From positions 1 to 20,587 of the IMG/VR virus record IMGVR_UViG_3300011116_000449: a stretch of 20,587 nucleotides of DNA. One strand, 5' to 3'. The notes under the pieces are model-generated. The model was not told the DNA's origin and made no database searches. It worked only from the letters and a program-made list of their open reading frames with translations. Shown here piece after piece: positions 3,725 to 7,282 of this stretch. Position 1 is the stretch's first letter, and each line of letters starts with the position of its first letter. This stretch comes from a virus. The position numbers and the translations under genes are program-made.

Positions 3725-3958
3725 ATGAACACTGATAAGTCTGGAGAGGGAAGGATAGTCGGTCTATCCACCCTTGGAGAAGCTATGTCTGAAGAAGAAT
3801 TCGAGGACAAAATGAACACCTACGAACTCGACCAACAGTATGCTGAGTACATCATGGAGCACAGGGTTGTCGGTAATGGAGAAATGCTTATCCGAATCAT
3901 GGAGAGAGGCGATCTCTACGAAGACTTCAAAGAACACATCATGTTTGGCAACAAATGA
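3725..3958 (+). CDS. Small acidic protein sharing a domain with the protein at 5458
   Basis: This 77-residue protein has AGGAG seven bases upstream. Residues 21-72 (beginning MSEEEFEDKMNTYELDQQYA and ending GDLYEDFKEHI) align with residues 140-193 of the protein at 5458-6063 (MTEEQFEVAMRTFKLEREYA ... GDYLQGFKEKM), with a two-residue gap. The shared unit is acidic and helical, so it is a small paralogous domain present twice in one operon. Its stop overlaps the start of the DpdA-like gene (ATGA), implying coupled translation. The function of the domain is unknown. Confidence 0.7.
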   Translation: MNTDKSGEGRIVGLSTLGEAMSEEEFEDKMNTYELDQQYAEYIMEHRVVGNGEMLIRIMERGDLYEDFKEHIMFGNK

Positions 3959-4635
3959 TTCATTATCATGGAACCCCAATATCACCCATCAAAGCCATAG
4001 AAACAATGGGTGGTAAGCATTTCTGTGTGTCCTATGCCAGACCTGATGACTTACAGAGATGTTTGCGTTTGGGACAGTCTTTGATGCTGGACAACGGGGC
4101 TTTTAGTGCAAAAACCCGTGGCTTGACCTTTGACATCAATGGCTTCTACGAATGGGTTGAGCCTTTGCTGGTACATCCACACTGGGCTGTAGTGCCTGAT
4201 GTAATTGATGGGACTGTTGAACAACAGAAAGAAATGGTCAAAACTTGGCCCTTTCGAAAAGAGTTTGGAATCCCTGTCTGGCACTTGGGTTTGCCAATTT
4301 CATATCTTCTTGAACTCTGCGACACCTGGGGACGGGTCTGCTTTGGATCGGCTGGTGAATTCTGGCAAATCGGCACTACTAAGTGGTGCGGCAAGATGGA
4401 CGAAGCCTTTAATGCCATGACAAACACTTTTGGGCGGCAATTGCCTTGGGTGCATGGTTTGAGGATGCTAGGACTGTCTTCTGGCCCTTGGCCCTTGGCT
4501 AGTGCAGATTCCACTAATGTGGCGCTACACCATGCTGAAAAACAGGTTTGTGCGGGTTGCATGGCAAAACGCATAGATTCCACTAATCCCCCAGGCCTCT
4601 GGGAACAAAAACCATTACAGGAGATTTTGATTTGA
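3955..4635 (+). CDS. DpdA-like 7-deazaguanine DNA transglycosylase (predicted)
   Basis: This 226-residue protein begins MIHYHGTPISP and carries the motif series I associate with short phage DpdA-like proteins of the tRNA-guanine transglycosylase superfamily: LDNGAFS (residues 45-51), VVPDVIDG (79-86), PVWHLG (107-112), FGSAGEFWQIGTTKWCGKM (130-148), HGLRML (167-172) and LASADSTN (181-188). Asp46, Asp82, Asp85 and Asp185 are candidate active-site residues. A late Cys199-x2-Cys202 pair may bind metal. Known DpdA enzymes exchange guanine in DNA for a 7-deazaguanine base such as preQ0, which protects DNA from restriction. The next gene, overlapping by four bases, looks like a queuosine-precursor transporter, which supports the call. 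No preQ0 synthesis gene is in the window. The substrate base is not known. Confidence 0.62.
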   Translation: MIHYHGTPISPIKAIETMGGKHFCVSYARPDDLQRCLRLGQSLMLDNGAFSAKTRGLTFDINGFYEWVEPLLVHPHWAVVPDVIDGTVEQQKEMVKTWPFRKEFGIPVWHLGLPISYLLELCDTWGRVCFGSAGEFWQIGTTKWCGKMDEAFNAMTNTFGRQLPWVHGLRMLGLSSGPWPLASADSTNVALHHAEKQVCAGCMAKRIDSTNPPGLWEQKPLQEILI

Positions 4636-5117
4636 TTTATCCAGCAATTTACATCGCCGCCCTAGTCATTGCCAATCTATTGGTGGCATGGCTTGGCCCT
4701 TGGTTTAGCCCCATAAATGCCTTTGTTTTGATTGGTTTGGACTTGTCATTGAGAGACAAGCTCCATGAGCAATGGAAAAACGACAAATTAGTGGTGAAAA
4801 TGGGTGGCTTAATAGCGACAGCAAGCGTGGTTTCTTACTTGTGGAATCCAGCGGCAGGGCCGATTGCATTGGCATCGTTTCTGGCATTTGCCCTTGCTAT
4901 GACTGCTGACACAATTGCTTATCACTTCTTGCGTGATAAACCTTGGATGATTCGATCAAATGGGTCAAATGTTGCTGGAGCTGCCGTTGATTCATTAGTA
5001 TTTCCCACAATTGCTTTTGGCGGGTTGTTGTTGCACATTGTTGCTTTGCAATTCGTTGCCAAGATTGTCGGCGGGTTGATTTGGAGCAAAATTCTAAGCA
5101 GGAGACAAGATGTTTGA
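4632..5117 (+). CDS. VUT/YhhQ-family queuosine-precursor transporter (predicted)
   Basis: This 161-residue membrane protein has about five hydrophobic segments (roughly residues 3-21, 27-37, 58-72, 74-92 and 117-150). Family features are GLDLSLRDKL after the second segment and the C-terminal SNGSNVAGAAVDSLVFPTIAFGG, which parallels the 'VDS-F--IAFG' signature of the YhhQ/VUT transporters. These import preQ0, preQ1 or related 7-deazaguanine precursors across the inner membrane. It starts at TTG, with the sequence TTGA shared with the previous stop and AGGAG about nine bases upstream, so it is coupled to the DpdA-like gene. The pairing suggests that the phage modifies its DNA with an imported precursor. 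The protein is shorter than E. coli YhhQ (about 220 residues). Confidence 0.68.
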   Translation: MIYPAIYIAALVIANLLVAWLGPWFSPINAFVLIGLDLSLRDKLHEQWKNDKLVVKMGGLIATASVVSYLWNPAAGPIALASFLAFALAMTADTIAYHFLRDKPWMIRSNGSNVAGAAVDSLVFPTIAFGGLLLHIVALQFVAKIVGGLIWSKILSRRQDV

Positions 5118-5457
5118 TGACTTTTGGAAAGCATGGCCTAGCAGTCCCAGAAAAGGGGCTAAATCGGCCTGTAAAAAGGTTTGGGACAAAACCTACTGCG
5201 ATACCCAGGCTGACCAGATCATCAAGCACTTAGCCTGGATGAAGACAACAGAGCAGTGGCTCAAGGCAAATGGGGCGTTTATACCTGCTCCCTTGGTGTA
5301 TTTGAACCAACAACGCTGGGATGGCGCAGAAGTGCCTGAAATGGCCTTTAAACCAGCCGTAGACCCTGCCCTAGCCAAGATCAAGGCAGACATAGCCAAG
5401 GCAGCACCTATGCCCGATCACATCAAAGAGCGTTTGGCTCAATTAAGGCGGCAATGA
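5110..5457 (+). CDS. Replication-protein-like C-terminal domain protein
   Basis: This 115-residue protein has the pattern FWKAWPSSPRKGAKSACKKVW at its N-terminus, followed by WLKANGAFIPAPLVYLNQQRWDG at about residues 50-72. The same FW--P---GK--A---W ... FIP-P--YLN--RW arrangement closes many phage and plasmid replication initiation proteins, where it is thought to recruit the helicase. Here it stands alone without the usual N-terminal winged helix, so it may be a split or reduced loader. AGGAG lies five bases before the ATG, and the gene overlaps the transporter gene by eight bases. Confidence 0.6.
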   Translation: MFDDFWKAWPSSPRKGAKSACKKVWDKTYCDTQADQIIKHLAWMKTTEQWLKANGAFIPAPLVYLNQQRWDGAEVPEMAFKPAVDPALAKIKADIAKAAPMPDHIKERLAQLRRQ

Positions 5458-6063
5458 ATGACTGATGCTGAACTGATAGAACTTGCTGCACAAGCGGCGG
5501 CAATTAACGCAGTTAAAGACCCTAATGGTGTCTGGCGTGACTATACGGGTATGCCACCAGCATTCAACATTTTGGATGCAAAGCCTTGGAATCCGCTTAC
5601 AAATGATGGCGATGCACTGCGATTAGCGGTGAAGTTGAACATGAAAATAAACATCACTTATGGTTTTGTTGAAGTGCAGTTTGAAGAAGATGTGCATGGT
5701 TCTTTCGTGCGGTCAGGCATTGTGGATTGGTCAAGGAAACAGGCTGGGAAACCAGTAAAACCGCCTGCCCAGCGAGAAAATATAGCTTCGGCTTTCGTGA
5801 GTGCAGGCATTGACAAGAATGAAGCCACTCGTCTAGCAATCGTTCGAGCAGCCGCTGAAATTGGTAAGGTTCCCATGACTGAAGAACAATTTGAGGTAGC
5901 AATGAGAACATTCAAACTTGAGAGAGAGTACGCTGACTACATCCTAAAGCGTCACAACAAAGAGATTGAACAGGGCATGGGTCTTTGGAAATTGATGGAC
6001 AAAGGTGATTATTTACAAGGGTTCAAAGAAAAGATGACAGGAATTAAAAATGACCAAAAATGA
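5458..6063 (+). CDS. Two-part phage protein: DUF2591-like front, small helical domain behind
   Basis: This 201-residue protein starts immediately after the preceding stop (TGAATG). Residues 1-135 resemble the short phage proteins with PWNPLTNDGDALRLAVKLNM (43-62) and the closing ATRLAIVRAAAEIG, loosely like DUF2591/NinX-type proteins. Residues 140-193 are a second copy of the domain that makes up most of the small protein at 3725-3958. The front type normally ends soon after the AAAEIG helix, so this looks like a fusion. No catalytic residues are evident. Confidence 0.65.
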   Translation: MTDAELIELAAQAAAINAVKDPNGVWRDYTGMPPAFNILDAKPWNPLTNDGDALRLAVKLNMKINITYGFVEVQFEEDVHGSFVRSGIVDWSRKQAGKPVKPPAQRENIASAFVSAGIDKNEATRLAIVRAAAEIGKVPMTEEQFEVAMRTFKLEREYADYILKRHNKEIEQGMGLWKLMDKGDYLQGFKEKMTGIKNDQK

Positions 6064-6295
6064 AGCACACCACTTACTTGACCAACAAAAACAAGGGATT
6101 GCCGTTGCACAGCACCTTGTCAATCATGCCCTCCTTGTATGCGGAGACATTGGCCCATCTTGTTTTGATGGCAAAAACTCCAGGGTGGAAGGGTCAAGCG
6201 TGGCACAGGGCGAAGGAATTGGAGGCTTGCCCAACATACCTATGGCTTGGGATAACCACCGATTTAATCAACACCATGAAGGATATAAAACATGA
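6050..6295 (+). CDS. Alternative overlapping frame, possible small gene
   Basis: This frame has AGGA at a good distance from its ATG. Its first 35 residues (ALHHLLD-like start: NEAHHLLDQQKQG, then VNHALLVCGDIG) look like a genuine helical phage peptide. After about residue 36 the sequence turns Gly- and Ser-rich and unlike a folded protein. The frame at 6060-6320 shows the opposite, with an unconvincing start and a convincing end. Either two genes overlap, or one protein is read through a +1 shift near 6150-6175. Confidence 0.3.
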   Translation: MTKNEAHHLLDQQKQGIAVAQHLVNHALLVCGDIGPSCFDGKNSRVEGSSVAQGEGIGGLPNIPMAWDNHRFNQHHEGYKT

Positions 6296-6320
6296 GCGAA
6301 GCATTAACCAGGGTAATTGA
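6060..6320 (+). CDS. Small phage protein with TPGWKGQAWHRAKEL motif
   Basis: The frame holds 86 codons from 6060, whose ATG overlaps the previous stop. The part after the ATG at 6168 (50 residues) is the recognisable one: KTPGWKGQAWHRAKELEACP, then WLGITTDLINTMK, a pattern I associate with short phage proteins of unknown function. The first 36 residues look out of frame, so the true start may be 6168 or the N-terminus may come from the frame at 6050. It overlaps the next gene by 29 bases. Confidence 0.5.
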   Translation: MKHTTYLTNKNKGLPLHSTLSIMPSLYAETLAHLVLMAKTPGWKGQAWHRAKELEACPTYLWLGITTDLINTMKDIKHERSINQGN

Positions 6321-6585
6321 CGAGCAACAAAAGCGAATAGATGATTTGTTGGAGGGCAACAAAAAGCTCATTGAAAGAGCTGACAGGGTTTTTAAACAGA
6401 ATGATGAACTGTTTGAGGCGATGGCAAGATTGCTTGACTATGATTTGCCTTCAGACAATATTACAGATAAACAATGGGCAGACTATTGCTCACTCAAGCA
6501 TGAAGTAAGAATGCAAATGCTAGATGCTGGTTATTGTGTTCGATGCTATGAATTTATTTGTGAATGCGAAAACCAATACGATTAA
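6292..6585 (+). CDS. Coiled-coil protein with C-terminal cysteines
   Basis: This 97-residue protein has AAGGAT seven bases upstream. Residues 1-48 form a long charged helix (VIDEQQKRIDDLLEGNKKLIERADRVF), likely a coiled coil that dimerises. The C-terminus GYCVRCYEFICECEN holds four Cys in a C-x2-C-x5-C-x-C arrangement that might bind a metal. No family recognised. It follows the small overlapping genes on the same transcript. Confidence 0.65.
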   Translation: MSEALTRVIDEQQKRIDDLLEGNKKLIERADRVFKQNDELFEAMARLLDYDLPSDNITDKQWADYCSLKHEVRMQMLDAGYCVRCYEFICECENQYD

Positions 6586-6587
6586 AC

Positions 6588-6809
6588 ATGAGACATGACA
6601 TTGATTGGCACAAGGTGCACGCAAAGGTCGGACAGAAAATACCTGTTTATCCTTTTAAAACAAACGAAACTCCATTTATTGGAACAGTTGAAAAGGTGAC
6701 AATAAATAAATATGGTCGTGTGAGTTATGTAGTAAATGGGCGTGATGTATTTGCAGAAGAATTATTGCCAGCAAAAGGACAGGAAAAACTTAAGATGAGA
6801 GCTTGTTAA
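6588..6809 (+). CDS. Small beta-rich basic protein, unknown function
   Basis: I place the start at the ATG two bases after the upstream stop, giving 73 residues (MRHDIDWHKV). An ATG 24 bases earlier would overlap the upstream gene; neither has a clear ribosome-binding site. The sequence alternates short beta strands: GQKIPVYPF, FIGTVEKVTINKYGRVSYVVNGRDVFAEELLP. This looks like a small SH3-like barrel and could bind nucleic acid or protein, but there is no family match I trust. Confidence 0.6.
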   Translation: MRHDIDWHKVHAKVGQKIPVYPFKTNETPFIGTVEKVTINKYGRVSYVVNGRDVFAEELLPAKGQEKLKMRAC

Positions 6810-7282
6810 TGACTATTTACCTTGGGCTAGATCCTGGTTCCATATCCGGCGCAGTTGGCGCATTGGATTCAAATGGCGATTATTTAGACTCTTTTGAAAT
6901 TCAGCACAAAGATAAAAATATTCTGCCCCTTGTATTCAAAAACATGATATTGCGTTGCATTGACCCACGAGAGGGCGCAGAGATTTGCATGGAATCGGTG
7001 CATTCAATGCCAGGGCAAGGGGTTGCCAGCAGTTTTCAGTTTGGCAGGGCAGTTGGGGTTATCTCAGCCGTGGCTGAATTAACTAATTACCCTTTTCATT
7101 TGGTAACCCCTCAGCGTTGGAAAAAGTATTTTCATTTGACAAGCGATAAAAACGAAAGCCTAGATTTAGCTCGATCATTTTGGCCTGAGGCAAAACTAAC
7201 GAGAAAGAAAGATGGAAACAGGGCCGAAGCGTTATTAATCGCCCTTTATTGGAAAGATCAAATAAATGGCGCAACCAATTAA
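6809..7282 (+). CDS. RuvC-like Holliday junction resolvase
   Basis: This is a 157-residue RNase H-fold nuclease. The motif YLGLDPGSISGAVGAL gives the first catalytic Asp (Asp8), CMESVHSMPGQG gives Glu62, and KKDGNRAEALLIALY gives Asp135 and Glu140. These match the acidic residues that hold two metal ions in RuvC. SSFQFGRAVGV and VTPQRWKKYF are also typical of phage RuvC-like proteins. The family cleaves four-way or branched DNA, resolving recombination and replication intermediates before packaging. The ATG at 6809 shares one base with the previous stop; a TTG six bases earlier is less likely. It pairs logically with the annealing protein of the left block. Confidence 0.85.
   Translation: MTIYLGLDPGSISGAVGALDSNGDYLDSFEIQHKDKNILPLVFKNMILRCIDPREGAEICMESVHSMPGQGVASSFQFGRAVGVISAVAELTNYPFHLVTPQRWKKYFHLTSDKNESLDLARSFWPEAKLTRKKDGNRAEALLIALYWKDQINGATN

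Follow-up and report, generated by a model that had tools for sequence, protein, structure and literature searches.

The dpdA-VUT locus

The window, by which we mean the whole stretch of DNA that was analysed (20,587 bases, an entire IMG/VR record), is freshwater phage DNA and probably a fragment of a genome. The phage is a tailed one, with a terminase, a portal and a major head protein encoded at 11.8-20.2 kb, and the first 7.3 kb encode a Sak annealing protein and a Holliday-junction resolvase. The genes diverge at 2990/2991, from where a leftward arm carries Sak and a rightward arm carries dpdA and, later on, the morphogenesis genes. The first-pass annotation, made from the bare sequence, had singled out two neighbouring genes sharing the bases TTGA, and we found both open reading frames in place, within a run of overlapping genes:

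3725-3958, plus strand: upstream ORF of 77 aa, overlapping dpdA by ATGA (from the sequence)
3955-4635, plus strand: dpdA, predicted short transglycosylase of the phage DpdA/TGT family, 226 aa, ATG start (from PHROG, profile alignment and a model)
4632-4635, plus strand: TTGA, in which dpdA ends and VUT begins (from the sequence)
4632-5117, plus strand: predicted six-helix membrane protein of the VUT/YhhQ family (QPTR, COG1738), 161 aa, TTG start (from Pfam, PHROG and a model)
5110-5457, plus strand: following gene in this run, 115 aa, similar to the C-terminal region of phage replication-initiation proteins, with an 8-bp overlap with VUT (from similarity)

An AGGAG run resembling a Shine-Dalgarno sequence precedes the TTG start of VUT. 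No obvious Shine-Dalgarno of its own was seen before dpdA, which, together with the ATGA overlap with the 77-aa ORF, suggests that dpdA is probably translated by coupling. Both look like real genes: they are under strong purifying selection, with a median dN/dS among close relatives of 0.044 for dpdA and 0.107 for VUT, and dpdA has homologues in over 100 phage records. A search for a preQ1 riboswitch yielded no credible Rfam match anywhere in the window.

Of 89 distinct viral pairs of dpdA and VUT, 58 overlap by 4 bases, and we considered whether it is itself a sign of function. This idea was rejected, since in relatives that lack VUT an equal overlap (ATGA) joins dpdA to unrelated genes, RusA-like or VRR-NUC-like, at the same junction, and since the 77-aa ORF of the window overlaps dpdA as well. 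The 4-bp overlap is thus uninformative when taken alone, and is ordinary phage packing.

Family and fold of the small DpdA

The 226-aa protein matched PHROG 887, named 'queuine tRNA-ribosyltransferase', at 8e-46, and had no match among the models of Pfam (including PF01702, that of the canonical tRNA TGT), NCBIfam or PADLOC. When a profile of 57 diverse relatives was compared by hhalign with the DpdA of Enterobacteria phage 9g, which itself also matches PHROG 887, the two aligned with a probability of 96.5% (E 7e-10), placing residues D46, H110, H167 and D185 of the window protein on D72, H141, H196 and D215 of 9g. D46, D82, H110 and D185 are invariant among the 57 members, and H167 is conserved in at least 90% of them. 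The diagnostic histidine of phage DpdA is therefore kept, as H167 corresponds to 9g H196, the residue that Hutinet et al. named as lacking in DpdA2 (PMC6884629). Judged by these comparisons, the small protein is a homologue of the phage DpdA family, in line with the initial reading of a DpdA-like enzyme. It shares with 9g DpdA both family and active-site residues, and differs from it in size and setting: the 9g protein has 317 aa and is encoded beside preQ0 synthesis genes, whereas the window protein has 226 aa, no accompanying QueC or QueD, and an adjoining putative transporter.

An AlphaFold2 model of the protein (pLDDT 93) presented a complete TGT-like barrel, with its eight strands in order. 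The lack of such a barrel, which the first-pass annotation had named as a ground for refutation, was thereby looked for and not found. The conserved residues are H3 and H5 (strand 1), D46 (strand 3), P81-D82 (strand 4), H110 (strand 5), G131 (strand 6), H167 and R170 (strand 7) and D185 (strand 8), and their location at or just after these strands is the arrangement known for the TGT active site. An hhalign comparison with E. coli tRNA TGT was not significant; the tie to TGT runs through 9g DpdA and the fold, and not through direct sequence similarity.

The shortness of the enzyme had been taken at first as a possible sign of a reduced subtype with its own base product. This suggestion did not hold: a length of 222-285 aa is usual for the DpdA branch of the window protein and the barrel is complete, so we rejected a truncated or reduced enzyme. 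Relatives of the same branch carry a known base, dADG, and nothing points to a private base for the window DpdA. A scheme of DpdA subfamilies has reportedly been laid out by Cui in 2023. Among the relatives, Salmonella phage 7-11 and Pantoea phage MED16 encode DpdAs of the same family (about 35-39% identity for MED16) and of about 240-260 aa, and have dADG in their DNA and no synthesis genes (PMC6884629, PMC8306585); they differ from the window in having no VUT next to their dpdA. The modification is tiny, at 0.13% of G in MED16 and about 0.02% in 7-11, and in MED16 the restriction enzymes tested were not noticeably hindered by it (PMC8306585).

We consider it unlikely that the enzyme acts on tRNA, of the host or of the phage, such that a minimal TGT and a transporter would together raise queuosine-type tRNA modification during infection. 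The TGT-type fold and the name of PHROG 887 would suit such a role, as would the part that Vut_1 transporters take in queuosine salvage and the TGT-QPTR fusions known in bacteria (PMC11130926); however, the sequence groups with phage DpdA and not significantly with E. coli TGT, the protein has 226 aa as against 375 aa for that enzyme, its relatives carry dADG in DNA, and the candidate host described below already has a TGT.

A search of PDB structures gave Cap10 of type IV CBASS (9ntn) as the best match (E 9e-5) and the sole hit with E<0.001. Cap10 has a TGT-type barrel like that of the window DpdA and binds an NDG-modified protein N-terminus (PMC11996544), so that a TGT-fold protein acting on a target other than nucleic acid, for example by interfering with deazaguanine-dependent defences such as Cap9/Cap10 of type IV CBASS, is conceivable. 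This is improbable, as Cap10 (Z 14.5, rmsd 3.2 over 210 residues) and TGT (Z 14.0, rmsd 3.0 over 203 residues) were tied upon realignment, showing no preference, and as the window protein fully keeps the Asp/His set of DpdA and matches no PADLOC model. A sequence search with it against PDB chains gave no match, Cap10 included. We favour phage DNA as the candidate substrate of the small DpdA.

Family and fold of the VUT protein

The 161-aa protein is a member of Pfam Vut_1 (E 9.2e-15; 55.7 bits against a cut-off of 27.2) and matched phrog_4899 at 2e-38. With the NCBIfam model TIGR00697 (queuosine precursor transporter) it scored 40.6 bits, under the cut-off of 50.95, and a profile of 38 of its relatives aligned to E. 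coli YhhQ (QPTR, COG1738) with an E of 8.5e-6. YhhQ is a Vut_1 protein too and its core aligned with the phage VUT, the two differing in length (221 versus 161 aa). The model of VUT has six long helices (pLDDT 93), which, along with the Pfam score, bears out the earlier VUT/YhhQ-type label. A search of this model against the PDB returned no significant fold match, so that the assignment draws its support from the sequence family. VUT is probably a 7-deazaguanine precursor transporter. The substrates of QPTR proteins vary, being preQ0/preQ1 in E. coli and queuine in Chlamydia (PMC11130926).

The pair recurs across unrelated phages

A tblastn search placed the window DpdA family in 104-105 phage records and, with three queries and one bacterial contig removed, the VUT family in 34. 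MT837598 ('Bacteriophage sp.'), which carries VUT, was left out of the phage tally because it reads as bacterial DNA, with DnaK- and GrpE-like ORFs. A window-type dpdA lies near VUT in 17 of the 34 records, where about 0.07 would be expected (Fisher p about 1e-37, the records not being independent), and in most of these 17 the two genes are adjacent, with one or two genes between them in Pam5 and X2_30. The pair occurs, in both gene orders, in phages of E. coli, Klebsiella, Enterobacter, Pectobacterium, Acinetobacter, Rhizobium and Pseudanabaena. Phages PEAT2, LHE71, RCIP0319, Opt-79, Phc, AB3P2, RHph_N3_2 and Pam5 have the two families as neighbours, often overlapping and often annotated as hypothetical; the enterobacterial pairs differ from that of the window in their reversed order. 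In four further VUT records that we examined, VUT lies near TGT-like proteins of other subfamilies; such enzymes accompany VUT in mycobacterial, Arthrobacter and Sinorhizobium phages. The DpdA of a 1.7-kb 'Staphylococcus phage' record (OR850331.1) has an identity of 35.8%, the same as that of Salmonella phages, and the record is possibly mislabelled.

Among viral contigs, VUT was found near 89 of 102 distinct dpdAs, downstream in 86 and upstream in 3. The contigs are for the most part closely related, and so are not independent cases. In bacterial genomes VUT was near 8 of 51 dpdAs, with none nearby for the other 43. On a tree of 78 DpdAs, the presence of VUT requires 18 changes, at least 10 of which are forced by well-supported branches. 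VUT is absent or lost in close relatives, and is thus dispensable. One such locus (L028:3336-3420) is a natural deletion in which VUT is lost and its first ~20 bases remain after dpdA. At three loci without VUT (L039:5711-6562, L045:2464-3282 and L046:5550-6398), the junction holds RusA-like or VRR-NUC-like genes, and at some such loci a PAPS-reductase-like protein (N-type ATP pyrophosphatase, ~272-283 aa) comes next; all of these were named by eye.

Seven mEp021-like phages carry VUT as well. In mEp021, the one of the seven that was examined, no dpdA was found beyond the first 14.8 kb, and VUT shares 4 bp with a methyltransferase-like gene (phrog_757; L224:3992-5259). Such a gene is possibly a second kind of VUT partner.

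The two genes also change partners. The DpdA of L030 is 90% identical to that of the window and its VUT merely 53.5%, whereas L034 has a more distant DpdA (84.5%) yet a VUT that is 83.4% identical. The viral contig L005 holds two dpdA-VUT pairs on opposite strands (1601-2829, minus; 6001-7163, plus), and their DpdAs belong to different subfamilies. The VUT of the second pair shares 91% identity with the VUT of L076, but the DpdA beside it shares 38% with the DpdA of L076 and 59% with the one in Acinetobacter phage AB3P2. Next to the second pair lies a short region that resembles the left arm of the window in matching order, which makes a chimeric contig less likely.

These observations show dpdA-VUT to be a recurrent, reshuffled module in which VUT was gained or lost at least 10 times and partners were swapped in two ways. 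Such re-association of partners speaks more strongly for a functional link than the overlap does. It is very improbable that the two genes merely happen to adjoin in a tightly packed early operon, their closeness carrying no functional meaning: start/stop overlaps are indeed general here, extending to other genes where VUT is missing, but the association with dpdA far above expectation in these non-independent records, in both orders, in several lineages and with swapping on both sides, speaks against it.

Precursor supply and the candidate host

The window, a 20.6-kb fragment, has neither QueC nor QueD, and QueC, QueD and FolE are absent from the long relatives tested, of up to 56 kb, in agreement with the first-pass observation that no synthesis genes accompany the pair. 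A QueC-like match in the L034 record (14.2 bits, below the cut-off) was rejected as not being QueC; PAPS-reductase-like ORFs are present in this neighbourhood among the relatives. In Caulobacter phage DMCA, a 98-aa ORF annotated as 6-carboxytetrahydropterin synthase abuts dpdA (L086:3705-4001).

One contig, whose DpdA is 82% identical, falls in the bin of a Betaproteobacteria MAG, which is a candidate host if this putative binning is right. The bin encodes QueC, FolE and TGT, and contains no Vut_1 besides that of the phage contig itself (taken to be C249 from its matching coordinates). Across 101 genomes of the family of the candidate host, QueC scored over the cut-off in 91 and Vut_1 was present in 29. 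If the bin is indeed the host, it makes preQ0, while an importer of the VUT type is usually lacking, and the transporter of the phage would top up a pool that is already there. Salvage would then plausibly supplement the preQ0 of the host rather than be required. The initial proposal of precursor salvage thus stands in part: salvage is plausible, though not a necessity, given that the candidate host bin encodes QueC and FolE. We regard as highly unlikely the opposite role, in which VUT would export 7-deazaguanines freed by turnover of host DNA or tRNA; nothing in its sequence fixes the direction of transport, but the characterised QPTR members import precursors (PMC11130926, PMC5372724).

A candidate two-gene DNA-modification module

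We propose, with moderate confidence, that dpdA and VUT constitute a two-gene phage module that puts a 7-deazaguanine base into DNA, VUT raising the supply of precursor. The small DpdA would exchange guanine in phage DNA for the base by the TGT base-exchange mechanism, in which, by analogy with TGT, D185 may serve as the nucleophile and D46 as the acid/base, D82 may recognise the base, and H110 and H167 would line the pocket. The base would most likely be preQ0, ending as dPreQ0 or dADG. VUT, for its part, would import preQ0 or preQ1 across the host membrane and raise free precursor beyond the supply made by the host. The likely benefit would be that the phage DNA is partly shielded from restriction or from other defences that sense DNA. 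Hutinet et al. tested the DpdA of 9g and concluded that it introduces preQ0 into DNA (PMC6884629). Several observations weigh against the proposal: the trace level of modification in MED16 and 7-11, the lack of a noticeable effect on restriction in MED16, the dispensability of VUT, the preQ0 synthesis of the candidate host, and the presence of VUT in mEp021-like phages without a dpdA found.

The swapping of partners allows for a bolder version, to which we give little credence, namely that the exchangeable VUT, and not the transglycosylase, sets the base: with specificities (preQ0, preQ1, queuine) exchanged between phages, the DNA of one lineage would carry whichever 7-deazaguanine is imported from the host or the environment, among them bases such as queuine, of which we know no report in DNA.

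DpdA, VUT and the class of phages with DpdA only are all already known, and the DpdA family of the window is not new. DpdA without synthesis genes corresponds to group 3 of Hutinet 2019, to which MED16 and 7-11 belong, the largest group of that survey and one whose modification status is hard to predict; the same survey recorded no correlation of YhhQ with any group (PMC6884629). No description of the pair as a module was found in the literature searched, in which subscription journals and recent deazaguanine work are thinly covered. What our analysis adds is that the two genes keep recurring together, and swap partners, in phages that are not related, an association stronger than that recorded in 2019. 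A recurrent, partner-swapping dpdA-VUT pair suggests a testable rule, that DpdA-only phages manage their precursor supply by transport, and the presence of the pair in cultured E. coli phages means that it can be tested there. The pair is also relevant to the question of why strong purifying selection maintains an enzyme whose modification, in the relatives measured, amounts to no more than traces.
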